Shown in pieces: positions 6,821 through 58,282 of a stretch of DNA of 64,000 bases; positions within the stretch are counted from its first letter, which is position 1, and the number at the start of each line of letters is the position of its first letter. The notes below the pieces were generated by a model, which was given only the letters and a program-made list of their open reading frames with translations, made no database searches and had not been told where the DNA came from. Source of the stretch: Bacteroidota bacterium (GTDB taxonomy: Bacteria > Bacteroidota > Bacteroidia > AKYH767-A > 2013-40CM-41-45); assembly GCA_016713765.1 (NCBI GenBank), contig JADJON010000001.1, positions 2,662,193 through 2,726,192 on the forward strand. The letters are read 5' to 3'. Made by a program: the position numbers and the translations under genes.

Positions 6821-8524
6821 ATGTACGATATCCTTGAATTGAATGACAAGCTCGTTAACGAGCTGAAAGAGATTGCCCGGTTGATGAACATTCCGAACTA
6901 CGATGAACTTCGGAAGCAGGAGTTGATCTACAAGATCCTCGACCAACAGGCGCTCAATCCGACTGCGAGTAACTCCATCCGGGAATCCCTGGTGGGTAAG
7001 TTCAGCAACGCCAAAGCGGAATCCGTCAAAGTTGCAGCTCCGGCTGCTGCCCCGGCCGCCAAGGAAAGCGACAGTGCCGGTTCCCGGCCCAAGCGGCGTC
7101 GCGTACCTCCCGGTGCCGCCGCTGCAGACGCTCCGGCGCCGGTAGCGCTGGAACCATCCGTTAAAGTCGCACCGGCTCGAAACCCGAACCCCACTCCGCC
7201 ACCGCCGCCCCCGACTCCTGTCCCAGCCGAAGCTGCACCGACACCACAACCGTCGCAACCGCGTCATCCGAACCAGGATCAGCGGCCACAGCCTTACGGA
7301 CAACAAGGGCAACAGAACCGGGATAACTTCGATCGCAATAGTAACTTCCGTCAGCAACGTCGCGATTTCCGCGCTCCGGAAACCCAGGTGGACGCCCAGG
7401 TGGAAAATGAAAGCCTGGTCAAATGTGAAGGCGTCCTGGAAATCATGCCAGACGGTTTCGGATTCTTACGATCCAGCGATTTCAACTACCTCACCTCACC
7501 GGACGATATTTACGTTTCCCAGGCTCAGATCAAAAACTTCGGTTTGAAAACCGGCGACACCGTCCAAGGCCTTGTTCGTCCGCCCCGTGAAGGTGAAAAG
7601 TACTTCCCCCTGATCCGGGCAGAACTCATCAACGGTCTGGATCCCGCTGTGGTTCGCGATCGGGTTCACTTCGATTATCTGACACCGCTCTTCCCGAACG
7701 AAAAACTCAACCTGGCCGAAGGCAAGCAAGTAACCTATTCCACGCGTATCATGGATATGTTCACGCCGATCGGTAAGGGTCAGCGCGGACTCATCGTCGC
7801 TCAGCCGAAGACCGGTAAGACGATGCTGTTGAAGGAAGTCGCCAACGCCATTGCGTCGAATCACCCGGAAGTGTACATGATCATCCTGCTGATCGACGAA
7901 CGTCCGGAAGAAGTAACCGACATGGCCCGCAGTGTAAAAGCCGAAGTCGTCGCCTCCACTTTTGACGAACCGGCAGAGCGTCACGTCAAGATCGCCAACA
8001 TCGTGCTGGAGAAAGCCAAGCGCCTGGTGGAATGTGGCCATGACGTCGTCATCCTTCTGGACTCCATCACCCGACTTGCCCGTGCATACAATACGGTAGC
8101 CCCTGCATCCGGAAAAGTGCTCTCCGGCGGCGTCGAAGCGAATGCGCTCCACAAACCGAAGCGCTTCTTCGGTTCCGCGCGAAAGATCGAAAACGGCGGA
8201 AGCCTCACGATCATCGCGACGGCCCTGATCGATACCGGATCCCGTATGGACGAAGTCATCTTCGAGGAATTCAAAGGTACCGGTAACATGGAACTGCAGC
8301 TCGACCGTAAATTGGCCAACAAGCGCATCTTCCCGGCAATCGACCTGGTCGCATCCTCCACCCGACGCGAGGATATGCTCCTCGACAAGGAAATGCTTCA
8401 GCGCATGTGGATCCTGCGGAATCACCTTGCCGACATGAATCCGCTGGAAGCGATGGAATTCCTCCTGCAACAGCTCCGGGGAACAAAAACAAACGAAGAA
8501 TTCATGATCTCCATGAGAGGTTGA
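6821..8524 (+). CDS. rho: Transcription termination factor Rho with disordered insertion
   Basis: A 567-residue hexameric RNA helicase that terminates transcription. Rho_N helical domain at residues 1-50 ([16 protein letters not shown]). Residues about 65-195 form a long Ala/Pro/Gln/Asn/Arg-rich insertion with runs of Pro and a KRRR-type basic cluster. The S1-like RNA-binding domain follows ([20 protein letters not shown]). The ATPase core has Walker [14 protein letters not shown], Walker [11 protein letters not shown], the Q-loop region around [11 protein letters not shown], and an R-loop/arginine finger region near [10 protein letters not shown]. coli Rho is 419 residues and the extra length is in the insertion. 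Bacteroides thetaiotaomicron Rho has a comparable disordered region reported to drive phase separation. The gene is followed by a strong intrinsic terminator. Confidence 0.97.
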
Positions 8525-22282: not shown

Positions 22283-22387
22283 GAGGGACGTGAGACGAGG
22301 GACGTGGGACGAGGGACGAGGGACGAGGGACGTGAGACGAGGGACGAGGGACGTGAGACGAGGGACGAGGGTCGAGGGAGCAGGGAC
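22283..22387 (+). repeat. Heptanucleotide tandem array 1 (GAGGGAC type)
   Basis: Fifteen consecutive 7-bp units with no insertion or deletion: GAGGGAC and GTGAGAC/GTGGGAC variants, the last three degenerate (GAGGGTC, GAGGGAG, CAGGGAC). The purine-rich unit is on the sense strand of yqgE, which ends just before the array. It covers much of the 320-base gap between yqgE and the tRNA-Pro gene; apart from the tRNA promoter nothing else is visible there. Confidence 0.9.
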
Positions 22388-22524
22388 GTTGATCAAAGAC
22401 TATTCGTGCCGTTTTAGGTTTTAGCTTCTTGTCACCCAGCAATTTCGATAGCTTACATCGTTGATTATCAACTGACTATTCAGCGTTTCAAAAAGCATCT
22501 GATCACATTCCTGGCTTGTCATTC

Positions 22525-22578: not shown

Positions 22579-22653
22579 CGGGGTGTAGCGTAGCCCGGTT
22601 AGCGCGCCACGTTCGGGACGTGGAGGTCGGAGGTTCGAATCCTCTCACCCCGA
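22579..22653 (+). tRNA. tRNA-Pro (anticodon CGG)
   Basis: A cloverleaf can be drawn. Acceptor CGGGGTG pairs with CACCCCG and the discriminator is A. The D arm contains AGCCCGGTTAG. The anticodon stem is CCACG/CGTGG with loop TTCGGGA, giving anticodon CGG for codon CCG. The T arm is GGTTCGAATCC. CCA is not encoded. Length 75 nt. Confidence 0.95.
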
Positions 22654-22663
22654 CAGCATAGTT

Positions 22664-22694
22664 AAAAGCCTTCCAGTGATGGGGGGCTTTTTTT
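22664..22694 (+). terminator. Terminator after tRNA-Pro
   Basis: AAAAGCC (with TTCC extending the stem by G-C and G-T pairs) pairs with GGGGGGCTTTT and is followed by further T residues, about ten bases after the tRNA end. Confidence 0.65.
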
Positions 22695-22696
22695 GT

Positions 22697-22821
22697 TAGG
22701 GACGTGGGGCGAGGGACTAGGTGCGAGGAACAAGGTGCGGGTGCGAAAGACGAGGGACGTGGGATGAGCGACGAGGGACGTGGTGCGAGGTGCGAGGTGC
22801 GAGGTGCGGAAAACGAGGTAC
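22697..22821 (+). repeat. Heptanucleotide tandem array 2 (GAGGGAC/GAGGTGC type)
   Basis: Seventeen 7-bp units and one 6-bp unit, more degenerate than array 1. GAGGGAC, GTGGGGC, GAGGTGC (three in a row near the end) and intermediate forms occur. It is on the same strand as array 1 and separated from it by the tRNA-Pro gene and its terminator. Confidence 0.82.
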
Positions 22822-22937
22822 CGGAGGTTCTTTCAGTAAAGAATAATGTGCCTTCGTATCACGGCTTAGCGAACCGTTCGAACGATAGGGTTTTGCATTT
22901 TCCTACAAGACACAACCAGTAACCATTCCAACCAACG

Positions 22938-23013
22938 CTGCCAACTGCCTACCGCATACTGCTTACTGCCTACTGCCTACTGCCTACCGCCTACCGCCTA
23001 CCCCTACCGCCTT
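22938..23013 (-). repeat. Heptanucleotide tandem array 3 (AGTAGGC type on the minus strand)
   Basis: About eleven units read on the plus strand as CTGCCTA, CCGCCTA and variants, with one 6-bp unit and a decayed tail to about 23034. The purine-rich strand is the minus strand, so it faces array 2. It ends about 35 bases before the ssrA -7 box. The 116 bases between arrays 2 and 3 show no gene. Confidence 0.82.
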
Positions 23014-23047
23014 CTGCTCCGCCGCCAACCGCCTCATCCACTTTTCG

Positions 23048-23055
23048 TATCTTTG
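23048..23055 (+). promoter_or_regulatory. -7 box of ssrA
   Basis: TATCTTTG matches TAnnTTTG and is placed to start transcription a few bases before the tmRNA 5' end at 23067. No TTG is seen at the -33 position, where the decayed end of array 3 lies. Confidence 0.5.
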
Positions 23056-23066
23056 CATCTACCTAT

Positions 23067-23431
23067 GGGGCTGACCGGTTTTGACAGCTGGATGAATCGT
23101 TCCGTAAGCATGCCGAGCGTCGTTAGTCAGGCTCGTTAATCCCGGCTTTCAAAGATTAGTTGGCAACACCAACTACGCGTTGGCTGCTTAATCAGACCGA
23201 TTAACCAGATCCGACTGTTTCCTGGAGACCTGCTCACCCGTCTCCTGTACGGAAGCATCGCATGGTGAGTGGGCAGACGCAAGGTTCCGTAGCGGCTGCC
23301 GAGATCAACGGGACTAAGCCTGCAGGTCGCCATCGTCCGGCAGCCGGCGGGTCGAAAATCAAAGGCCGATAAGCATGTAGAAAGCGGGGTTATTCCCGGT
23401 TTGGACGCGGGTTCGACTCCCGCCAGCTCCA
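23067..23431 (+). ncRNA. ssrA: tmRNA (ssrA)
   Basis: Transfer-messenger RNA for trans-translation. The 5' end GGGGCTGACCGGTTTTGACA and the 3' end, with T arm GGTTCGACTCC and acceptor strand CAGCTCC plus A, form the alanine-tRNA-like domain; GGGGCTG pairs with CAGCTCC including one G-U pair. The tag reading frame is at 23162-23191 and encodes GNTNYALAA followed by TAA; charged Ala is added before it. CCA is only partly matched after the discriminator. About 365 nt, a normal single-piece length. A strong terminator follows. Confidence 0.96.
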
Positions 23432-23439
23432 CCTCCATC

Positions 23440-36027: not shown

Positions 36028-36065
36028 AATTAGTAATTAGTAATTAGTAATTAGTAATTAAAAAT
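36028..36065 (+). repeat. Heptanucleotide tandem array 4 (AATTAGT type)
   Basis: Four perfect AATTAGT units (36028-36055), then decaying units. It lies between thrB and thrA, about 30 bases upstream of the thrB start. Written as AGTAATT, the unit is on the plus strand, facing array 5. Confidence 0.88.
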
Positions 36066-36100
36066 TGAGGTTCCAGAATAAACATACGATTCGCTAAACT

Positions 36101-36160
36101 ATTTACTGTTTACTATTCACTATTCACTATTCACTATTCGCTATTCGCTATTCGCTATTC
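36101..36160 (-). repeat. Heptanucleotide tandem array 5 (AGTGAAT type on the minus strand)
   Basis: Eight full units and a partial one, read on the plus strand as ATTTACT, GTTTACT, three ATTCACT, three ATTCGCT and ATTC. On the thrA sense strand the units are AGCGAAT, AGTGAAT and AGTAAAC. The thrA stop codon (minus strand, 36157-36155) lies within the first unit, so the array begins exactly at the gene end. Confidence 0.9.
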
Positions 36161-38620
36161 AACGCCAAAATAGTTCCCAATACTGATAATCTCAGCAAAC
36201 ACACCGGCTGCGGTGACTTCGGCGCCGGCGCCTGGGCCTTTTACGACCAAGGGTCGTTGATTGTAGCGATCGGTCCGGAAAGAGATGATGTTATCGCTTC
36301 CCGATAAATTGTAGAAAGGGTGTTTGGTATCCACCTCGGTCAATTGTATGCTGGCTCTTCCGTTTTCGAGTCGGGCGATGAAACGAAGTACACAACCTTT
36401 CTTTGCCGCTCGTGCGCGAAGTGATTCCATTTCGGCATCGATATCCGGCAAGGCAGACAGGAACGCTCCAACGGTTTTGGCCTTCATCAGGCGAGCGGGT
36501 AAGAGGGGTTTGATTTGAATGTCACCGGATTCGAGCGGTAACCCGGTTTCGCGCGCCAGGATAAGGAGTTTTCGGGCTACATCGGTACCGGACAAATCGA
36601 TTCGCGGGTCCGGTTCGGTATACCCCAGTTCCTTGGCTTGCTTGACAACTTCGCTGAAGGGGATGCCTTCCCGGAAGGTATTGAAGATATAGGAAAGGGT
36701 ACCCGACAATACTGCCTCGATCGAACGGATACGATCACCACTCGTGAGCAGGTTTTGCAGGGTGTTGATGACCGGCAGGCCGGCTCCTACGTTGGTTTCG
36801 TACAAGAACTTCGCGTGATGCTTCCGTACCAGTTCGTGCAGTTTCCGGTATTGACGGTACGGACCGGCATTCGCCAGTTTATTCGGCGTAACCACCGAGA
36901 TGTTTGACGCGATCAAGTCTCCGTAAACCGAGGCCACCGATTCGTTCGACGTACAATCGACGAAGACCGTTTGCGGGAGGTTCATGGATTTCATCCGGTC
37001 GACAAACAACCGGATATCCATCGGTTCGCCCGAACGGTCAAGCGTTTCACTCAAGCGTTTAAGTGAAATGCCATCCGGAGCGAAGTACATTTTCCGGCTG
37101 TTGGCGACGCCCGCGATCACGATCTCCAGGGAACGGGCCTGCTTCAGGTGGTCGCGGTGTTCGGCTACCTGCTTCAGGAGTGTTTTACCGATGAGTCCGG
37201 TGCCGACCAGGAAGACGGAGAGCGTCTTGACTTCCGACAGGAAGAATGCCTGGTGCAAGGCGTTCATCGCCTTACCCAGATCCTGTTTCCGGATGACCGT
37301 TGAAATGTTCAGTTCCGAAGAACCCTGGGCGGTAGCTACAACGCTGATACCGTTTTTCCCGAGCGCGCCGAAAAGCCGGGCGGAGACGCCGGGTGTGTTT
37401 TTCATGTTCTCACCGATCACGGCTATCACGCTCAGGCCCTCCTCCACTTTCACCTGCTCAATGAGGTGGTCGCGGATCTCAAATCGAAATGCTTCCTCGA
37501 TAGCGGCCTTTGCCTGCGCGGCATCACCGGGACGGACCGCGAAGGTGATCGTATGCTCGGAACTCCCCTGGGTGATCAGAATGACATTCACCTTCGACTG
37601 ACTCAAGGCGCTGAATAAGCGTGCCGATATGCCGGCCACCCCGACCATGCCACTGCCTTCGAGCGTGAGCAGGCTGATATCGTCGATGGAAGAGATTCCT
37701 TTGATCAGAAAATCCGCACCGTTCGATTTACGGGAAACGAATGTGCCGTCCGACTGCGGACGAAAGGTATTCTTGATCCGCAACGGTATCCCCTTCTCCA
37801 GCGCCGGCTGAATGGTCGGCGGATGGATGACCTTGGCACCGAAGTGCGACATCTCCATGGCTTCGCGATACGACATGGTCGGTACCGTAAACGCCTTGCG
37901 TACTTTTCGCGGATCGGCCGTCAGGACACCATCCACATCGGTCCAGATCTGGATCTCCCGTGCCTTGGTGGCTGCGCCGGCAATCGCGGCCGTATAATCG
38001 GAGCCGCCTCGGCCGAGCGTGGTAGTTTCATTACGCGCCGTCGATGCAATAAAGCCGGTCATGACGACCACCTGCTCACGGTGCTTCTTCAACCATTGAC
38101 CGATCTGTCGGTTCGTCGTAGTAAAGTTCACACGTGCATTACCGAACTGTTCGTCCGTTCGGATAACTTCCCGTGCGTCGAGAAAACCAGCGGATCGCCC
38201 TTTCGAACGCAGGTACGCTGCGATGATACGGGCAGACAAGAGTTCTCCGTGAGCGCTGACGAAATCGAGCGTGCGATCCGACAGTTCTCCAACCAGGAAG
38301 ACCCCGTGCAGTGTATCGTACAATCCGGAAAAGTCAGCCTTCAACTGATCAGCCAGATTTCTATCCTTTCCCAGACGAAGTAACTTGACCGTTTCTTCGT
38401 GCCGGTGACGCACGCGCTCCAATACTTCCACATATCCCCGGTCGCGGCGTGCAGCCATCCTGCTCATCCGGATCAGATCGTCGGTAACACCTGACTGCGC
38501 AGAAACAACAACGATGGTCCGCTCGGATGCCGGTTTCCGGGCATCGCGAATGATCGAATCCAAAGCTTTAATACGGTCAGCACCTGCGACAGAAGTGCCG
38601 CCAAATTTCATTACTAACAT
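36155..38620 (-). CDS. thrA: Bifunctional aspartokinase / homoserine dehydrogenase
   Basis: An 821-residue fused enzyme for the first and third steps of the aspartate pathway. Aspartokinase: MLVMKFGGTSVAGADRI, the TTLGRGGSDYTAA loop and VDGVLTADPRKV. Two ACT domains lie in the middle (about residues 310-460; LTLEGSGMVGVAGISARLF, VAVIGENMKN-like), where threonine would inhibit. Homoserine dehydrogenase: LVGTGLIGKTLLKQ (NAD(P) binding), the FVDCTSNESVA segment, VLSGTLSYIFNTF and ELGYTEPDPRIDLSGTDVARKLLILARE. No leader peptide with Thr/Ile codons is visible upstream, so attenuation is not supported. The stop codon sits inside a repeat array. Confidence 0.97.
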   Translation of the reverse strand: MLVMKFGGTSVAGADRIKALDSIIRDARKPASERTIVVVSAQSGVTDDLIRMSRMAARRDRGYVEVLERVRHRHEETVKLLRLGKDRNLADQLKADFSGLYDTLHGVFLVGELSDRTLDFVSAHGELLSARIIAAYLRSKGRSAGFLDAREVIRTDEQFGNARVNFTTTNRQIGQWLKKHREQVVVMTGFIASTARNETTTLGRGGSDYTAAIAGAATKAREIQIWTDVDGVLTADPRKVRKAFTVPTMSYREAMEMSHFGAKVIHPPTIQPALEKGIPLRIKNTFRPQSDGTFVSRKSNGADFLIKGISSIDDISLLTLEGSGMVGVAGISARLFSALSQSKVNVILITQGSSEHTITFAVRPGDAAQAKAAIEEAFRFEIRDHLIEQVKVEEGLSVIAVIGENMKNTPGVSARLFGALGKNGISVVATAQGSSELNISTVIRKQDLGKAMNALHQAFFLSEVKTLSVFLVGTGLIGKTLLKQVAEHRDHLKQARSLEIVIAGVANSRKMYFAPDGISLKRLSETLDRSGEPMDIRLFVDRMKSMNLPQTVFVDCTSNESVASVYGDLIASNISVVTPNKLANAGPYRQYRKLHELVRKHHAKFLYETNVGAGLPVINTLQNLLTSGDRIRSIEAVLSGTLSYIFNTFREGIPFSEVVKQAKELGYTEPDPRIDLSGTDVARKLLILARETGLPLESGDIQIKPLLPARLMKAKTVGAFLSALPDIDAEMESLRARAAKKGCVLRFIARLENGRASIQLTEVDTKHPFYNLSGSDNIISFRTDRYNQRPLVVKGPGAGAEVTAAGVFAEIISIGNYFGVE

Positions 38621-41582: not shown

Positions 41583-42971
41583 ATGAACTACGACCTGATC
41601 GTCATCGGCAGCGGACCCGGAGGCTATGTTGCCGCTATCCGCGCCGCACAACTGGGAATGAAAACAGCCGTCATTGAACGTTCCGAACTCGGCGGCATCT
41701 GCTTGAACTGGGGGTGCATACCAACCAAAGCCCTGTTGAAGAGCGCACAGGTATATGAGTACCTGCTTCATGCACAAGACTATGGAGTAAAAGCCTCGGG
41801 CATCGAAGCGGATTTTGGCGCCATGGTCAAGCGTAGTCGTGGCGTTGCCGATGCGATGAGTAAAGGTGTCCAGTTCCTGATGAAGAAGAATAAGATCGAG
41901 GTGATCGCCGGGACTGCAAAGATCAAAGCGGGGCGCAAAGTCGAAGTCTTGGCTGCCGACGGCAAGTCCACTTCCTACGAAGCGAAACACATCATCATAG
42001 CCACCGGCGCCCGCTCACGCGAGTTGCCCGGCCTCAAGCAGGATGGCAAAAAGGTGATCGGCTACCGGGAGGCCATGTCCCTGCCGCAACAACCGAAATC
42101 CATGGTTGTCGTCGGTTCCGGAGCAATTGGCGTCGAGTTCGCCTATTTCTATAATTCGATCGGCACAAAGGTCACCATCGTGGAATATCTCCCGAACATC
42201 GTTCCGCTCGAAGACGAAGACGTTTCAAAACAACTGGCCCGCAGCTTCAAGAAATCCGGCATCGAGATCATGACGGAGGCAAGTGTCGAATCGGTCGACA
42301 CCTCGGGCAAAGGCTGTAAGGTGAACGTCAAAGGAAAATCCGGCAATTCGGTCATCGAGTGCGATGTCGTTTTGTCGGCCGTAGGCATTACAGCGAACAT
42401 CGAAAACCTCGGACTTGAAGAAGTAGGGATCGCCACCGACAAAGGCCGGATCATGGTGAACGACTGGTATCAGACGAATATGCCCGGCTATTATGCGATC
42501 GGGGACGTCATCAACACCCCTGCCCTTGCCCACGTCGCTTCGCATGAAGCCATCACCTGCGTGGAGAAGATCGCCGGCCTGCACGCTGAGCCGATGGATT
42601 ACAAGAACATTCCCGGTTGTACTTACTGTCAGCCCGAAATCGCTTCAGTCGGTTACACCGAAAAAGCAGCTAAAGATGCCGGCTATGAGATCAAGGTCGG
42701 CAAGTTTCCATTCACTGCTTCGGGAAAAGCGAAAGCCGGTGGCACGCCGGACGGATTTGTCAAGGTCATCTTCGACGCGAAGTATGGAGAATGGCTGGGC
42801 GCCCACCTCATCGGCGCCAACGTCACTGAAATGATCGCCGAAGTAGTGACGGCCCGCAAACTCGAAACCACCGGACACGAGATCATCAAAGCCGTTCACC
42901 CCCACCCGACCATGAGCGAAGCCATCATGGAAGCAGTTGCTGAAGCTTATGGGGAGTGCATTCATCTTTGA
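41583..42971 (+). CDS. lpd: Dihydrolipoyl dehydrogenase
   Basis: A 462-residue E3 flavoprotein of the 2-oxoacid dehydrogenase complexes. FAD site IVIGSGPGGYVAAIRAAQLG, redox-active disulfide GGICLNWGCIPTKALL, NAD site MVVVGSGAIGVEFAYFY, second FAD motif GYYAIGDVI, and the catalytic His-Glu in AVHPHPTMSEAIMEAVAEA. It may serve several complexes. Four bases after its stop begins a perfect heptanucleotide array on the same strand. Confidence 0.96.
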   Translation: MNYDLIVIGSGPGGYVAAIRAAQLGMKTAVIERSELGGICLNWGCIPTKALLKSAQVYEYLLHAQDYGVKASGIEADFGAMVKRSRGVADAMSKGVQFLMKKNKIEVIAGTAKIKAGRKVEVLAADGKSTSYEAKHIIIATGARSRELPGLKQDGKKVIGYREAMSLPQQPKSMVVVGSGAIGVEFAYFYNSIGTKVTIVEYLPNIVPLEDEDVSKQLARSFKKSGIEIMTEASVESVDTSGKGCKVNVKGKSGNSVIECDVVLSAVGITANIENLGLEEVGIATDKGRIMVNDWYQTNMPGYYAIGDVINTPALAHVASHEAITCVEKIAGLHAEPMDYKNIPGCTYCQPEIASVGYTEKAAKDAGYEIKVGKFPFTASGKAKAGGTPDGFVKVIFDAKYGEWLGAHLIGANVTEMIAEVVTARKLETTGHEIIKAVHPHPTMSEAIMEAVAEAYGECIHL

Positions 42972-42975
42972 TTTT

Positions 42976-43059
42976 AGTGAACAGTAAACAGTAAACAGTA
43001 AACAGTAAACAGTAAACAGTAAACAGTAAACAGTAAACAGTAGATGGTGAATAGCGAAT
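42976..43059 (+). repeat. Heptanucleotide tandem array 6 (AGTAAAC type)
   Basis: Twelve units in strict 7-bp phase directly after lpd: AGTGAAC, eight AGTAAAC, AGTAGAT, GGTGAAT and AGCGAAT. The AGT strand is the lpd sense strand. Confidence 0.95.
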
Positions 43060-43089
43060 CCTGCCTGCCGTAGCTTTAGCGAAGGCAGG
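43060..43089. repeat. 30-bp imperfect palindrome inserted in a repeat array
   Basis: Outer arms CCTGCC and GGCAGG can pair; alternatively TGCCGTAGC pairs with GCGAAGGCA at seven of nine positions around TTTA. It is flanked on both sides by the heptamer AGCGAAT (43053-43059 and 43090-43096), so it looks like an element inserted into, or captured by, the array. It breaks the 7-bp phase. Confidence 0.7.
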
Positions 43090-43107
43090 AGCGAATAAAA
43101 TATTTCT

Positions 43108-43163
43108 AATCACTAATTACCAATTACTAATTACCAATTACTAATTACAAATTACTAATTTCT
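43108..43163 (-). repeat. Heptanucleotide tandem array 7 (AGTAATT type on the minus strand)
   Basis: Eight units on the plus strand: AATCACT, AATTACC, AATTACT alternating, AATTACA and AATTTCT. The AGT/GGT strand is the minus strand, facing array 6. Confidence 0.9.
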
Positions 43164-43182
43164 AGTCCCTTCTCCTGGCACC

Positions 43183-43229
43183 AAATAAAAGGGAACAGCA
43201 GCCTTCGCTACTGTTCCCTTTTATTTTTT
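43183..43229. terminator. Bidirectional terminator between lpd and mscL
   Basis: A long inverted repeat AAATAAAAGGGAACAG / CTGTTCCCTTTTATTT around a 12-base loop, with a T run on the plus side and A/T-rich flanks. It lies 14 bases downstream of the stop codon of a small reverse-strand gene relic (43243), which suggests it was that gene's terminator. Confidence 0.85.
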
Positions 43230-43242
43230 CATTAGTCGGAGA

Positions 43243-43281
43243 CTAAAATTCCAGACCCAGATTGAAGTGGGTGGATTGCTC
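43243..43281 (-). pseudogene. 3' relic of an outer-membrane beta-barrel gene (tentative)
   Basis: On the minus strand the last codons before a TAG stop read EQSTHFNLGLEF. This is the amphipathic, Phe-terminated last strand typical of Bacteroidota outer-membrane barrels. A strong terminator follows 14 bases later. Upstream the frame runs into a heptanucleotide array (43301-43419) and a stop, so no intact gene exists. I infer that the rest of the gene was lost and the array now occupies its place. The fragment is too short to exclude chance. Confidence 0.4.
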
Positions 43282-43300
43282 TAAACAGGCAACAGCCATA

Positions 43301-43419
43301 CTGCATACCGCCTACTGCCTATTGCTAACCGATCTCTGCCTACCGCCTACTGCCAATTGCTAACCGATCTCTGCCTTCCGCCTGCCGCCAACCGCCTACT
43401 GATCTCTGCCAACTGCAGG
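43301..43419 (-). repeat. Heptanucleotide tandem array 8 (AGTAGGC type on the minus strand)
   Basis: Seventeen 7-bp units with no indel, ending one base before the mscL stop codon. Units on the plus strand include CTGCCTA, CCGCCTA, CTGCCAA, TTGCTAA and CCGATCT. A higher-order order CTGCCTA-type, TTGCTAA, CCGATCT recurs at 35-bp spacing (TTGCTAA at 43322 and 43357). The purine-rich strand is the mscL sense strand. Confidence 0.93.
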
Positions 43420-43420
43420 C

Positions 43421-48814: not shown

Positions 48815-49031
48815 CCGATGGGTTTATCCTGCAAAACTACGCATTCGCCAAGTTTTGAAGCGCCTTAGCTTTCCCTTCAATGCTGCGGTTCCCGACAAGC
48901 CCGAAAAGCGCGTCTAGCAAGGGATTTCAGGCTTTCTAGTTTAAAATGACGTTAAAATGCCTTACATTAGTCGCTCTTCCTTCTTTTACATCTTATACAA
49001 CACAAACGTGAAACTCACCTCTAAACCTGGA

Positions 49032-52000
49032 ATGCTGCAGTCATTCCTTTTTCCGCGCCTCAACAGCAACTTTGGTTCACTTTCCCGGAAAAGTACTTTC
49101 TCCCTACTGGCGCTGCTTGGATGCCTCTTGATTTCGGCCAGGTTGAAAGCAGGAGATGCTTGTATGCAGTTGCCCATTTCACTTGCCGACCGCGTCAACC
49201 AGTCCGAGCTGATCATTGAAGGTGAAATCATCAGCAGCCAGTCGAAGTGGAATGTTGAACGAAACATGATCTTCACGGTAAGCCAGATTCGTGTCTTCAA
49301 ACTGTTTAAAGGCAGCTTATCAGGCTCGGTAGTTACACTGCTTACGGAAGGAGGCCAGGATGGACTTGATCTCATTGAAGTAGGCAATGAATTCATGCCG
49401 GTCGTCGGCGAGCAAGGCGTGTTCATGCTCAAAACGAACTCGAAGATTCCGAACCTGGCCATTCGGTTTCAGGGCCCACTCTATACCTGCTTCATGGCAC
49501 ATCAAAGTACGGTCATGTACAACCTCTTTGATAAAACAGCCAACAGTCCGTTTCAACAATTCAACAGTATTCCATACGGACTATATCCGGCCATTCATCA
49601 GATCACCGGGCAGTACCACACGGAATTGATTACAAATACCCGGCTCAACCAGGCCTTGCAGCAAACACAGTCAGGAAATCAGGTGTACGCGGTCCCGACT
49701 ATCACCTCGTTCACTCCGACGACGATCACCGCCGGCACCCGCAGCCTGCTTACCATCAACGGTACCAATTTCGGTGCATCGCGAGGAGCAGGTTTCGTCG
49801 AGTTTCGCAATGCCAACGATGGAGGTGCCAGCTGGGTCCAGGCCAAAGCAAGTGACTACCGAACCTGGACCAACACACAGATCACGGTCTGGGTTCCCTC
49901 CAGTTCACTTTCCAACGGCCCTTCCGCCGGAACCGGCCAGATCCGGGTCACGAACAACGATCCGAATATCGCCACCAGTACAGGAACACTGACGGTCACC
50001 TATTCTGTCATCAACGTGGAATTCGACGGCAAGGGTCAGTACACGGAACACCAGAACGACAATACCACAGGTGGCTACACCTTCCAATGCGAAGCCGCCA
50101 CCTTTGCCGCGAATGCCCCTGCTGTCGCCGCCTTTACCCGTGCCATGAACACCTGGACCTGCAGTACCAACATGAATTGGATCCTGGGAGCAAACACAGC
50201 CGTGGACACTGCACTTGCCGATGGCATCAATATCGTTCGCTTTGACAAAGGCCCCAGCCTGCCTGCCGGTGTATTGGGCAGAGCTACTAGCCGGTTTTCC
50301 GGTTGTATCAATGCAGCGGCTCCCAGCGATACCGTCTGGACAGTCACCGAAGTCGATGTCGTGTACGATGATGGTGCTGCCGGCCTTTCCTGGAATTTCT
50401 CGACAGCCAACGCCACCTTCTCGCAAATCGACTTTGAAACGGTCACTGTACACGAATTGGGGCACGCGCATCAGTTGCAGCACATCATCAATTCGGGCGC
50501 GATCATGCACTACTCCATCTCGAATGGTCAAACCTCCCGGGTGCTCTCGCCTACGATCGATGTCCCGGCCGGAAATTTCGTCATGACCCGGAGTACCGCA
50601 GCCCACGGAGCCTGCAAACCTTCTCCCATGACGAGCCTCTCTCTGGCGGCCTCCGTTTCCATTGCCGCCAGTCCGGGAACCAGCGTTTGTTCGAACACCA
50701 GTGTGACATTTACGGCTACCCCCGTCCTACCCGCCGGAACCGCCACTTATACCTGGAAAAAGAACGGCGTTACGGTTGGCACGAACAGCACCACCTACAC
50801 GAATGCATCCTGGGTCAACGGCGATCAGGTACAAGTAGTGATGAGCGTCTCGGGCGGTTGCAATCAAACCGTCAATTCGAATACGCTCACCATGACGGTC
50901 AGCACGGCTGTTACCGCATCCGTCAGTATCGCCGCTTCACCTGGCACAACCGTCTGCAACGGGACGAATGTGACCTTCACCGCTACCCCCACCAACGGAG
51001 GCACGACACCTGCTTACCAATGGAAATTAAACGGAAGTAACGTCGGTACCAACAGCCCCACCTACTCGAACGCCGCTCTGGCGAACGGAAACACCGTCTC
51101 TTGCGTGATGACCAGCAATGCCAATTGCGTAACCGGTAGTCCCGCAACATCCAACGCCCTGACCATGACGGTGAACACAACACCATCGGTCTCGATCTCT
51201 CCTGCAACGGTTACAATCTGTTCCGGACAAAGCACGACCCTCACCGCTTCCGGTGCCTCGACCTACGCATGGTCGCCGGGCGGTGCGACAACCGCGGCCA
51301 TCACGGTAACTCCCGGAGCAACCACCACTTATACCGTCATTGGCACGACCGGCTCCTGCACGGCTTCCGCTACGAGGTTGGTAACGGTGAACACGACTCC
51401 TTCGGTTTCTATATCACCTGCATCCGCAACGATCTGTTCCGGACAAAGCACGACCCTGACGGCATCGGGCGCGACTTCCTACAGTTGGGCTCCCGGTGGA
51501 GCGATAACCGCCGCTGTTACGGTGAACCCCGGCGCTACAACCACCTACACCGTCATCGGCACTACCGGTTCGTGTACCGCCTCCGCAACCCGACTGGTAA
51601 CGGTCAATACAACGCCTACTGTTTCGATTTCTCCCGCAACAGCAACTATTTGTTCCGGACAAAGCACGACGCTGACGGCCTCAGGAGCAACCAGCTACAG
51701 TTGGACTCCCGGCGGAGCAATCACCGCCGCCGTTACGGTGTCACCCGGAGCCACTACCACCTACACCGTCATCGGTACTACCGGCTCGTGTACCGCTTCT
51801 GCTACGCGATTGGTAACCGTCAATACGACCCCGACCATCACGATTTCTCCTGCTTCGACAACGATCTGTAACGGTAGCAGCACCACACTCACCGCTTCCG
51901 GCGGAACCACTTACTCCTGGACTCCGGGAGGAGCGACGACGGCTGCCATTACGGTATCGCCCACCACCACAACCGCTTACACAGTGGTCGGCACTTCGGG

Positions 52001-54200
52001 TAGTTGCAGCGCCAATGCCATCGCAACCGTCACCGTAACGCAGGTTCCGATCGCGGTGAGTCCCACCAGTACAACCATCTGCTCCGGACAGAACACCACG
52101 CTCACCGCTTCCGGCGCCACCACGTATTCCTGGTCGCCGGGTGGAGCCACTACCGCTGCCGTTACGGTCGCGCCGACCAGTACAACCACTTATACCGTGA
52201 CCGGAACAGTCAGCGGCTGTACGAAGACCGCGACAGCCACCGTCAATGTCACCACCGTCAGCGTTTCCATCTCGCCGGCATCGACGACCATTTGCGCCGG
52301 CCAAAGCACGACCCTGACCGCTTCCGGTGCGACTACCTATGCCTGGACGCCTGGAGGAGCTACTACGGCCGCCATTACGGTATCGCCCACCACCACAACA
52401 GCGTATACCGTTGTCGGAACTACCGCAGGTTGCAGCGTTAATGCCATTGCAACCGTCACCGTTACTTCCCTCCCAACCATCACCATCTCCCCTGCTTCGA
52501 CAACGATCTGTAACGGCAGCAGCACAACGCTGACGGCTTCCGGAGGAACCAGCTATTCGTGGACACCTGGTGGAGCGACAACAGCGGCCATTACGGTATC
52601 GCCCACCGCGACTACTGCTTATACGGTAGTCGGCACTTCCGCCGGCTGCAGCGCCAATGCCATCGCAACCGTCACCGTGACGCAGGTTCCGATCGCGGTG
52701 AGTCCCACCAGCACGACCATCTGCTCCGGACAGAACACCACGCTCACCGCTTCCGGTGCTACCACGTATTCCTGGTCGCCGGGTGGAGCCACTACCGCTG
52801 CAATTACAGTCGCACCGAACAGCGCGACTACCTATACTGTGACCGGCACTGTCAGCGGTTGTACGAAGACCGCCACAGCCACCGTCAATGTCACCACCGT
52901 CAACATCGCCATCTCTCCGCCTACTGCCAGTATTTGTCCGGGAGGCAACATCACCCTGACCGCTTCCGGCGGAACCACTTATGTCTGGGCGCCTGGTGGC
53001 GCTACGACCGCGGCCGTAACCGTATCTCCGACTAGTACGACAACCTATACCGTCACCAGCGCAAGCGGCGGCTGTCCGGGAAGCGCCACGCGTGTGGTGA
53101 CGGTCAATCCCTCCGTTACTGCAAGCATCAACATCGCGCCGACACCCGGCAATTCCATTTGCAGCGGAACCTCCGTGCTGTTTACCGCAACGATTTCGAA
53201 TGGAGGCGCCAGTCCGGTTTATCAATGGACACGAAACGGCACTACTGTTGGACCGAATGCTAACGCTTACCCGACTTCCACCCTTTCCAATGGCGATATC
53301 ATTTCCTGCACACTGACCAGCAATGCCGCTTGTGTCACCAATCCTACGGTGGTGTCCAATCCGGTAACCATGACGGTCAGCGGCGGCCTGCCGACGATCA
53401 GCTCCTTCACACCTACCAGCGGCACATCCGGCACCATTGTTACGATCAACGGCACGAACTTCGTCGGGGTCAGTGCGGTGAAGTTCAACGGAACCAATGC
53501 CTCGTTCACGGTGGTGAACGCTACCCAGATCACCGCTACGGTTCCGGCCGGCGCCACCACAGGACTGATCAGTGTCACCAACAACTGTGGAACCGGAAAC
53601 AGTGCAACCAACTTCACCGTAGGTGCAGCCACTGCTAACCTGAGTCTTCAGGTCTTGTTACAGGGCATGTATATCGGCAGCGGACAAATGATCGCGGCCA
53701 TCAACCCATCCGGAAATCCGAATGCCTGCGATACGATCACCGTATCCCTGGCTGCCGCCACATCACCCTATGCCATCCTGTATTCGAACAAGGATACCAT
53801 CAACCTCTCCGGACTCGGCGTCTTTACGTTCCCTGGCGCAGTCATCGGCAACAGTTATTACATCGTCGTTCGCCACCGCAATAGTCTCGAAACCTGGAGT
53901 GCAGCACCGGTATCCTTCAGCAGTTCGAACATTTCGTACAATTTCCAAAACTCCGCCGCGCAAGCCTATGGCAGCAACCAGGCCAGCCTGGGAGGTGGCA
54001 AGTTCGGACTCCATTCAGGTGATACGAATCAAGATGACCTCATTGAGGCTTCCGACTATTCCGCGGTAGAGAATGCGGTTCAGTCCTTCCTCTTCGGCTA
54101 TGTAGCCACCGATCTGAACGGGGATCAATTGGTAGAGGCATCCGATTATTCGCTGGTCGAGAACAACAGCTTGCTGTTCCTGTTCACTGCTGCACCCTAA
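49032..54200 (+). CDS. Giant secreted metzincin-like protein with Ig-like repeats and dockerin-like end
   Basis: About 1722 residues from the chosen start; an upstream in-frame ATG at 48957 would add 25 atypical residues. Order: signal peptide (STFSLLALLGCLLISARLKA), an N-terminal beta domain, an IPT/TIG domain (ITSFTPTTITAGTRSLLTING), a metalloprotease domain with HELGHAHQLQH (HExxHxxxxxH, Glu catalytic) and a candidate Met-turn in AIMHYSI, and two Ig-like domains. Nine homologous repeats of about 71 residues follow, each with TICSGQSTTLTASGA and a YTV strand. Then another Ig-like and a second IPT/TIG domain, and a C-terminal pair of calcium-loop motifs (GDTNQDDLIEASDYS and TDLNGDQLVEASDYS) like dockerin type I. 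No T9SS type A tail is seen. The protease substrate is unknown. Confidence 0.85.
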   Translation: MLQSFLFPRLNSNFGSLSRKSTFSLLALLGCLLISARLKAGDACMQLPISLADRVNQSELIIEGEIISSQSKWNVERNMIFTVSQIRVFKLFKGSLSGSVVTLLTEGGQDGLDLIEVGNEFMPVVGEQGVFMLKTNSKIPNLAIRFQGPLYTCFMAHQSTVMYNLFDKTANSPFQQFNSIPYGLYPAIHQITGQYHTELITNTRLNQALQQTQSGNQVYAVPTITSFTPTTITAGTRSLLTINGTNFGASRGAGFVEFRNANDGGASWVQAKASDYRTWTNTQITVWVPSSSLSNGPSAGTGQIRVTNNDPNIATSTGTLTVTYSVINVEFDGKGQYTEHQNDNTTGGYTFQCEAATFAANAPAVAAFTRAMNTWTCSTNMNWILGANTAVDTALADGINIVRFDKGPSLPAGVLGRATSRFSGCINAAAPSDTVWTVTEVDVVYDDGAAGLSWNFSTANATFSQIDFETVTVHELGHAHQLQHIINSGAIMHYSISNGQTSRVLSPTIDVPAGNFVMTRSTAAHGACKPSPMTSLSLAASVSIAASPGTSVCSNTSVTFTATPVLPAGTATYTWKKNGVTVGTNSTTYTNASWVNGDQVQVVMSVSGGCNQTVNSNTLTMTVSTAVTASVSIAASPGTTVCNGTNVTFTATPTNGGTTPAYQWKLNGSNVGTNSPTYSNAALANGNTVSCVMTSNANCVTGSPATSNALTMTVNTTPSVSISPATVTICSGQSTTLTASGASTYAWSPGGATTAAITVTPGATTTYTVIGTTGSCTASATRLVTVNTTPSVSISPASATICSGQSTTLTASGATSYSWAPGGAITAAVTVNPGATTTYTVIGTTGSCTASATRLVTVNTTPTVSISPATATICSGQSTTLTASGATSYSWTPGGAITAAVTVSPGATTTYTVIGTTGSCTASATRLVTVNTTPTITISPASTTICNGSSTTLTASGGTTYSWTPGGATTAAITVSPTTTTAYTVVGTSGSCSANAIATVTVTQVPIAVSPTSTTICSGQNTTLTASGATTYSWSPGGATTAAVTVAPTSTTTYTVTGTVSGCTKTATATVNVTTVSVSISPASTTICAGQSTTLTASGATTYAWTPGGATTAAITVSPTTTTAYTVVGTTAGCSVNAIATVTVTSLPTITISPASTTICNGSSTTLTASGGTSYSWTPGGATTAAITVSPTATTAYTVVGTSAGCSANAIATVTVTQVPIAVSPTSTTICSGQNTTLTASGATTYSWSPGGATTAAITVAPNSATTYTVTGTVSGCTKTATATVNVTTVNIAISPPTASICPGGNITLTASGGTTYVWAPGGATTAAVTVSPTSTTTYTVTSASGGCPGSATRVVTVNPSVTASINIAPTPGNSICSGTSVLFTATISNGGASPVYQWTRNGTTVGPNANAYPTSTLSNGDIISCTLTSNAACVTNPTVVSNPVTMTVSGGLPTISSFTPTSGTSGTIVTINGTNFVGVSAVKFNGTNASFTVVNATQITATVPAGATTGLISVTNNCGTGNSATNFTVGAATANLSLQVLLQGMYIGSGQMIAAINPSGNPNACDTITVSLAAATSPYAILYSNKDTINLSGLGVFTFPGAVIGNSYYIVVRHRNSLETWSAAPVSFSSSNISYNFQNSAAQAYGSNQASLGGGKFGLHSGDTNQDDLIEASDYSAVENAVQSFLFGYVATDLNGDQLVEASDYSLVENNSLLFLFTAAP
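51178..53107 (+). repeat. Nine tandem coding repeats of about 213 bp
   Basis: The Ig-like repeats of the giant protein form a tandem DNA repeat. Units 4-5 (from about 51826) and 7-8 (from about 52474) are near-identical pairs, separated by unit 6, which shows duplication of a block of about three units. Cys pairs recur in each unit (TIC...GSC or SGC). Such repeats can expand or contract by recombination and can collapse in assemblies. Confidence 0.9.
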
Positions 54201-58052: not shown

Positions 58053-58164
58053 GGGTTCCGAGTTTCGGGTTCCGAGTTTCGAGTTTCGGGTTTGGATGGT
58101 TAGTTATTAGTGATTAGCTATTGGCGACTAGAGGTTGGTGATTAGATATTTGTGACTGGATTTC
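58053..58164 (+). repeat. Heptanucleotide tandem array 9 (AGTTTCG then AGTNATT type)
   Basis: Sixteen units in one 7-bp phase immediately after the stop of the TamL-like gene: GGGTTCC, GAGTTTC, GGGTTCC, GAGTTTC, GAGTTTC, GGGTTTG, then AGTTATT, AGTGATT, AGCTATT, GGCGACT, AGAGGTT, GGTGATT and weaker units. The AGT strand is the gene's sense strand. Confidence 0.85.
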
Positions 58165-58282
58165 ATCCACCAATGACCAATCACGACTTTCCAATCACAA
58201 GTCCCAAACACTGTTTACTGTTTACTGTTTACTGTTCACTGTTCACTGTTCACTGTTCACTGTTCACTGTTCACTGTTCACT
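58165..58282 (-). repeat. Heptanucleotide tandem array 10 (AGTGAAC type on the minus strand)
   Basis: In the same 7-bp phase as array 9 but with the AGT strand switched to minus. Weak units (AATGACC, AATCACG, AATCACA) lead into three GTTTACT and seven perfect GTTCACT units at 58213-58282. It ends 27 bases before the predicted fbaB -7 box. With array 9 it fills the 281-base gap between the flanking genes. Confidence 0.92.

Follow-up and report, generated by a model that had tools for sequence, protein, structure and literature searches.

Why do tandem arrays of 7-nt units stand at gene ends in this genome, with the same strand repeatedly sense to the gene and often in pairs that face each other? 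The question is raised by the gap between lpd and mscL (42972-43420) in the window, the whole 64,000-nucleotide stretch analysed here. An array of AGTAAAC units (family A, 42976..43042, + strand, sense) begins 4 bases past the lpd stop codon (42969-42971). Near it lies a palindromic insert (CCTGCCTGCCGTAGCTTTAGCGAAGGCAGG, 43060..43089, + strand), and beyond the insert an array of AGTAATT type (family B, 43102..43164, - strand) faces the lpd array at 130 bp from lpd. Between the lpd-side and mscL-side arrays, an intrinsic-terminator-like inverted repeat with A/T flanks was read by eye (43183..43229, not assigned to a strand). The mscL-side array is degenerate (family F, AGTAGGC/GGTTGGC type, 43299..43420, - strand); it is sense at the mscL stop, has its first AGT 6 bases from that stop, and shows a higher-order period of 35 bp.

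Further arrays are found elsewhere in the window. A family A array (36098..36161, -, sense) overlaps the end of thrA, whose stop codon lies inside a unit, and is faced by a family B array of AATTAGT units (36028..36060, +) located before thrB. A family C array (AGTTTCG/GGTTCCG, 58053..58093, +, sense) starts 1 base past the stop of a TamL gene, faced by a family A array that reads CACTGTT on the + strand (58209..58282, -), upstream of a fructose-bisphosphate aldolase gene. The sequence-only reading had placed the arrays of these four genes 0-5 bases from the stop, which is accurate for lpd (4) and TamL (1); the thrA array overlaps its gene, and mscL (6) falls slightly outside. It had also fitted yqgE to the same rule through the GAGGGAC strand, and this array (family E, 22283..22388, +) is indeed sense, starting 23 bases past the yqgE stop. 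The tRNA-Pro and tmRNA genes at 22579-23434 have a facing pair between them: a family E array (22698..22808, +) starting ~45 bases past tRNA-Pro, and a family F array (22938..23017, -) ending ~50 bases before the tmRNA gene. NCBIfam matches lay above curated cut-offs for lpd, mscL, thrA, TamL, homoserine kinase and the class I aldolase; those for YqgE/AlgH were clear, yet under the cut-offs. An Rfam search of the window's arrays found no family. The window also holds a gene for transcription terminator Rho at 6821-8524 (profile match 6830-8515) and an ORF of 1747 aa (48957-54200) with internal repeats of 213-216 bp, for which NCBIfam returned nothing at E<=0.001.

The genome, 4,013,867 bases in 6 contigs, was sampled over 1.41 Mb (35%); the window forms the end of contig 1. 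The discovery sample (864 kb) consisted of the window together with 40 stretches, each of 20 kb, spread along contig 1. Unit families and gene caller were then fixed, and a hold-out sample of 28 more stretches (549 kb) was drawn from contigs 2-6, with contig 3 supplying most of them. Gene calling relied on a dicodon caller of our own making, so starts are less certain than stops. With a detector whose minimum array length was ~28 bp and a scan of periods 2-21, we found 128 noncoding period-7 arrays (84 discovery, 44 hold-out) and one coding. There were no noncoding arrays of period 6 in either sample and one of period 8 in each, so that the period of 7 predicted from the window is nearly exclusive; comparable counts at 6 and 8 bp, which the sequence-only reading had named as counter-evidence, were not seen. 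A few other periods gave one or two noncoding arrays; 14 and 21 are themselves multiples of 7.

The STRR heptamers of filamentous cyanobacteria are dispersed intergenic heptamer arrays, and with a 7-nt unit in tandem, dispersed and noncoding, the present arrays belong to this STRR, or heptameric simple-sequence-repeat, class. The STRR differ in units and phylum, and, Rehm's Nostoc repeats (below) set aside, they are not known to show gene-edge polarity.

Merging left 155 arrays in at least six unit families: A (AGYRAAY, 60 arrays), B (RGTRAYT, 27), E (GAGGGAC, 26), C (RGTTYCG, 15), F (RGTWGGC, 12) and D (RGTTGAA, 11), with four arrays in no listed family. GGG-based units occur only in the GAGGGAC-type arrays (26/155), the consensus of families A, B, C, D and F having none. 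Variation among 424 family A units was almost confined to three positions, with 369 transitions and 21 transversions, and the first base was A in all 424. In one sampled stretch (L044, 5475-6474), family A arrays recur at intervals of ~484 bp, apparently as passengers of a longer tandem duplication.

Orientation was scored by the AGT-type strand (the GAGGGAC strand for family E), leaving out five arrays outside gaps and the four without a listed family. That strand ran inward, from gene edge into gap, in 84/98 discovery and 38/48 hold-out arrays. Within 25 bp of a stop it was sense in 46/46 (31/31 discovery, 15/15 hold-out), bearing out what the sequence-only reading had proposed for gene 3' ends. 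Its restriction to 3' ends did not survive: arrays within 25 bp of a start were inward in 16/17 (11/11 discovery, 5/6 hold-out), and divergent gaps and the tRNA-tmRNA pair behave likewise. By strands of the flanking genes, inward counts were 19/22 (+-), 28/35 (++), 25/28 (--) and 12/13 (-+) in the discovery sample and 15/16, 5/6, 15/23 and 3/3 in the hold-out, gaps between two minus-strand hold-out genes being the weakest class. Polarity fades with distance, from 91:6 inward to outward within 80 bp of an edge to 31:18 beyond; the array at 43102..43164 scores as outward under this nearest-edge rule.

The claim that paired arrays face each other was also upheld. Adjacent arrays faced each other 37 times (24 discovery, 13 hold-out), pointed in the same direction 20 times (13 and 7) and stood back-to-back in neither sample. 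The 43 one-array gaps contained 239 facing units ahead of the array and 3 opposite units behind it, with at least two facing units ahead in 27/43; single arrays are mostly pairs whose partner is worn. Adjacent two-unit steps in array-free gaps ran inward 69 times and outward 6 times (longer runs being counted repeatedly). Short runs of at least two units outside arrays were weaker: 98 ran inward and 32 outward, with a ratio of 55:5 up to 80 bp from an edge. Among all short runs, 18 adjacent ones were facing, 3 back-to-back and 48 in the same direction.

Among four predictors of the inward strand within 80 bp, an excess of G over C was the best (87:9, one tie), compared with AGT (65:8, 24 ties), purine content (77:20) and A>T (64:31, 2 ties). 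AGT is thus replaced by G>C as the determinant, and "AGT-type" is the poorer descriptor overall, with G>C winning just 4 to 2 where the two disagree near an edge. Purine loading was rejected, as it loses 12 to 1 to G>C where they disagree near an edge. The G>C strand ran inward within 80 bp in 62/66 discovery and 25/30 hold-out arrays, and beyond 80 bp in 22/34 and 13/19; at 1-40 bp the ratios were 31:2 for stops and 20:2 for starts. Arrays near gene edges therefore show a strong polarity, in which the G>C strand leads away from the gene into the gap, so that a gap with two arrays mostly reads G-rich, middle, C-rich from either side. Nine of the ten window arrays tabulated conform when tRNA-Pro and tmRNA are counted as gene edges, the exception being the array at 43102-43164 that faces the lpd array. 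The tRNA-tmRNA pair, two arrays only, keeps the polarity, which suggests that translated neighbours are not needed.

A symmetry of this kind could be mutational. Wherever a gap contains a break or a stalled end, arrays would be added to, or expanded from, the 3' strand, and they would have no function; each 3' end would gain the G>C strand, leaving two inward arrays of independent families, like head-to-head telomere repeats. We regard this origin as possible but doubtful. It accounts for a polarity that is the same on either side of a gap however the genes are oriented, for the unit remnants of one-array gaps (239 against 3) and for the two-unit steps of array-free gaps (69 against 6), and the arms do look independently chosen (6/37 same-family pairs, 8.2 expected). 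It sits less well with the three back-to-back short runs and with the lack of a Pfam RVT_1 reverse transcriptase in the genome. The available text on DRT10, a telomerase-like reverse transcriptase, describes it as making tandem-repeat DNA (PMC12632851); with no RVT_1 gene here, no such enzyme is at hand. A telomerase-like reverse transcriptase was accordingly rejected as the source: RVT_1 is absent from this genome and from array-rich relatives such as G007, G015, G021 and G027, and was found in array-poor ones such as G010, G018 and G032.

The sequence-only reading had looked for the reason in stop codons, which many units place in all three frames. This explanation fails, since arrays without a stop codon on either strand, possible from units such as AGTTTCG or GAGGGAC, obey the rule in 9/9 cases within 40 bp of stops, and the rule also applies at starts. 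Units with stop codons can themselves end ORFs, so arrays may look sense at a stop through gene calling; in the present genome this artefact is ruled out by arrays clear of the stop (20:0 and 12:2 at 1-40 bp, overlapping or abutting ones excluded). A broader filter at the level of translation, in which start codons and Shine-Dalgarno-like words keep leaders free of the G-rich strand and, past stops, stop-bearing units are favoured or supply the stop, seems rather unlikely to us. It would fit the thrA stop codon inside a unit, the 18 arrays that overlap or abut a stop, and the antisense skew of array-free gaps over the 10 bp next to a start (G 0.31, C 0.19). The stop-free arrays speak against it, as do the polarity between tRNA and tmRNA genes (two arrays) and the unskewed sequence after stops in array-free gaps (G 0.23, C 0.25), which also eliminates background composition after stops as the cause. 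Antisense CAAANNTA-type words were among the commonest near starts in the sample, in array-free and array gaps alike; we take them to be the complement of the TAnnTTTG promoter box of Bacteroidota.

A transcribed facing pair had further been expected to form long imperfect RNA duplexes. Folding does surpass that of most shuffles in the lpd gap (z -4.2, palindrome included) and in the thrA gap (z -1.8), but not in the TamL gap (z +0.3), and duplex formation is no rule: the inner 42 nt of the 37 facing pairs gave a mean of -16.8 kcal/mol, whereas permuting the partners gave -18.5 (P=0.75) and random 42-mers -16.6. That facing arrays are the arms of a long stem which protects or ends a transcript is thus already disfavoured, and we hold it very improbable. 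The lpd and thrA folds and the position of the palindromic insert in the loop of several pairs would suit such a hairpin, while the TamL fold, arms no more complementary than permuted ones and the joining of different families in 31/37 pairs do not.

The insert itself, an imperfect palindrome of 29 bp (CTGCCTGCCGAAGCTTTAGCGAAGGCAGG), occurs in 63 copies in the 1.41 Mb (43060-43089 and 62 others), none of them coding. In alignments read by eye it is flanked by the heptamers of A, C and E arrays, and next to A arrays it shares their strand in 29/29 adjacencies. We presume it to resemble the small dispersed repeats nested in cyanobacterial heptamers. A search of open-licence literature for three palindrome strings found no occurrence. 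One might then see a REP/REPIN-like mobile element with the arrays as its flanks, in keeping with the number, placement and strand of the noncoding copies and with four Y1_Tnp genes in the genome. We give this little credence: a copy lies within ~1.5 kb of only one of the four Y1_Tnp loci, 37 of the 63 copies are more than 25 bp from any array, and many array pairs lack the palindrome.

The reading we prefer, with a probability of about one in three and drawn from sequence, is that selection keeps the polarity and that a facing pair would serve as a two-way transcription boundary. Arrays would arise and change length through slippage or copying in 7-bp steps, and selection would act on RNA from transcription running outward, from gap into gene, thereby preserving the polarity. 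Outward RNA would be C-rich, G-poor and full of YC dinucleotides, like a Rho loading site, and inward RNA the opposite; a facing pair might then let a transcript out of one gene unharmed and obstruct any that approaches the following gene. In support of such insulation stand the polarity itself, hold-out included, G>C as the best of the four predictors, and the tRNA-tmRNA pair. In its favour too, the outward strand has C 0.34, G 0.11 and 0.196 YC per nt, as against 0.020 YC on the inward strand and ~0.13 over ten whole loci, and Rho is encoded in the genome. Rehm 2015 (PMC4692102) further reports the majority of such repeats in Xac as transcribed, with transcripts starting or stopping more often at those that form G4.

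Intrinsic terminators, called by our own simple finder, were present at 4/55 codirectional stop edges with arrays versus 79/283 without (Fisher P 0.0006). This is suggestive only of arrays standing in for terminators in codirectional gaps, and short operonic gaps could explain the loss. The counts for all gap types (24/103 with arrays, 109/379 without, P 0.32) and for convergent gaps (20/48 and 30/96, no loss) go against insulation. A start-side array would, moreover, obstruct the gene's own transcript unless that transcript began downstream of it. In gaps of at least 100 bp, arrays occurred in 23/65 convergent, 54/301 codirectional and 10/125 divergent cases, a ranking that also fits mere tolerance. 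To our knowledge, cyanobacteria are without Rho. Set beside this, the polarity shared by Nostoc in the available text of Rehm 2015 (PMC4692102) argues against the boundary.

It also counts against the boundary that one array pair lies between thrA and thrB, probably an operon. The gap measures 157 bp here, and it is ~1-100 bp and array-free in seven readable relatives, so there is no conserved need for these arrays. The thrA-thrB adjacency is intact in those seven, the readable ones of ten relatives with thrB, which excludes rearrangement junctions as the array sites. Judged from these sequences, the thrA-thrB arrays are new in the present lineage (one locus compared). No array was found in the readable 480 bp past lpd in 13 relatives. 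Overlapping matches to six AGT units numbered 271 here (65 for the reversed-pattern control) and 11 and 0 in two congeners. Such matches are present in 19/42 genomes of the order, the present one included, with the control about as high as the matches in some (e.g., G019 and G021).

Polarity was also seen in other genomes. In G022, of another family in the same order, 15/16 arrays in gaps follow the G>C rule, with units including AAGGATT, AGTGATC and AGTTATC. The G007 sample gave three usable arrays in gaps, two inward and one outward, three of its eight "arrays" being N runs. In Terrimonas ferruginea, from stretches picked for AGT runs and not for orientation, AGT runs were inward in 26/32, with 4 adjacent runs facing, none back-to-back and 2 in the same direction. 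When GTDB contigs were scanned for runs of seven AGT units, at least 118 loci were returned, 80 of them named. Among the matches listed, which span several phyla, the G>C strand ran inward in 65/87 arrays 1-80 bp from an ORF edge (P 4e-6); these 87 were left from 233 once arrays inside or overlapping ORFs, at contig edges, weakly skewed or more distant had been dropped. By phylum, assigned by hand from titles, in:out counts among the matches listed were 14:2 for Bacteroidota, 16:5 for cyanobacteria, 15:9 for other named and 20:6 for unlisted sources. Among the same matches the AGT reference gave merely 49:27 at 1-40 bp, and at stops 32:4 for arrays overlapping or abutting but 27:15 at 1-40 bp, so most of this AGT effect comes from the ORF-overlap artefact. 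Thirty loci from ten named genomes, reduced by hand, yielded 17 distinct gap arrays, 14 of them inward; four of the 17 repeat places in the Terrimonas ferruginea count, and without these 11/13 are inward. Cross-phylum polarity is weaker than that of the present genome. One might suppose that heptamer arrays of several phyla obey a single polarity law, with the G>C strand inward from the edges of coding and RNA genes alike, because an end-extending activity lays them down at 3' DNA ends in gaps, which would make facing pairs the bacterial counterparts of interstitial telomere repeats; we consider this improbable.

The sequence-only reading knew of no equivalent in Bacteroidota, a statement that two earlier reports correct in their available text. 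Rehm 2015 (PMC4692102) describes heptamer repeats, GGGNATC and GGGGA(C/T)T, in Xanthomonas and Nostoc that are intergenic, near the 5'-side ORF in either orientation, sense up to 50 bp past stops and antisense up to 50 bp before starts, with runs of four units preferred; facing pairs number 70 in Xcc and 75 in Xac, and repeats are under-represented between divergent ORFs. Period 7, intergenic position, edge polarity and facing pairs are common to those repeats and the present arrays. In contrast to them, as far as that text describes them, the present arrays form at least six families, of which only GAGGGAC has G-tracts, their facing arms are usually of different families, a palindromic insert is nested among them, and the host is read as a member of the Bacteroidota, in keeping with its TamL gene. 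MacGregor 2015 (PMC4679880) reports TAACTGA heptamers in Beggiatoaceae, cyanobacteria and five Bacteroidetes, with 147/170 sets pointing toward a start codon, and proposes translational regulation. Read by their AGT strand, these sets share the polarity of the present arrays; the TAACTGA unit has equal G and C, and the G>C rule is therefore silent on it. An AGT/ACT-containing heptamer is common to both, and the related units AGTTATC and AGTGATC occur in the relative G022. TAACTGA, on the text available, forms short sets upstream of starts, whereas the present arrays are longer, more often near stops and of several families. TAACTGA was not among the unit families of the sample from the present genome.

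Polarity and facing pairs of G-rich heptamers have thus been known since 2015 (available text of PMC4692102); new here is their occurrence in arrays that are mostly non-G-quadruplex and of mixed families. In the open-licence literature searched, we found no statement of a polarity rule for non-G-rich units. The rule is now separated from G-quadruplex formation, stop codons and translation regulation, and the reports from Xanthomonas, Nostoc, Beggiatoa and Bacteroidota unite under one testable description. If mutation makes the polarity, the arrays are the trace of repair or replication acting directionally in gaps; if selection maintains it, they may be a widespread type of transcription boundary.
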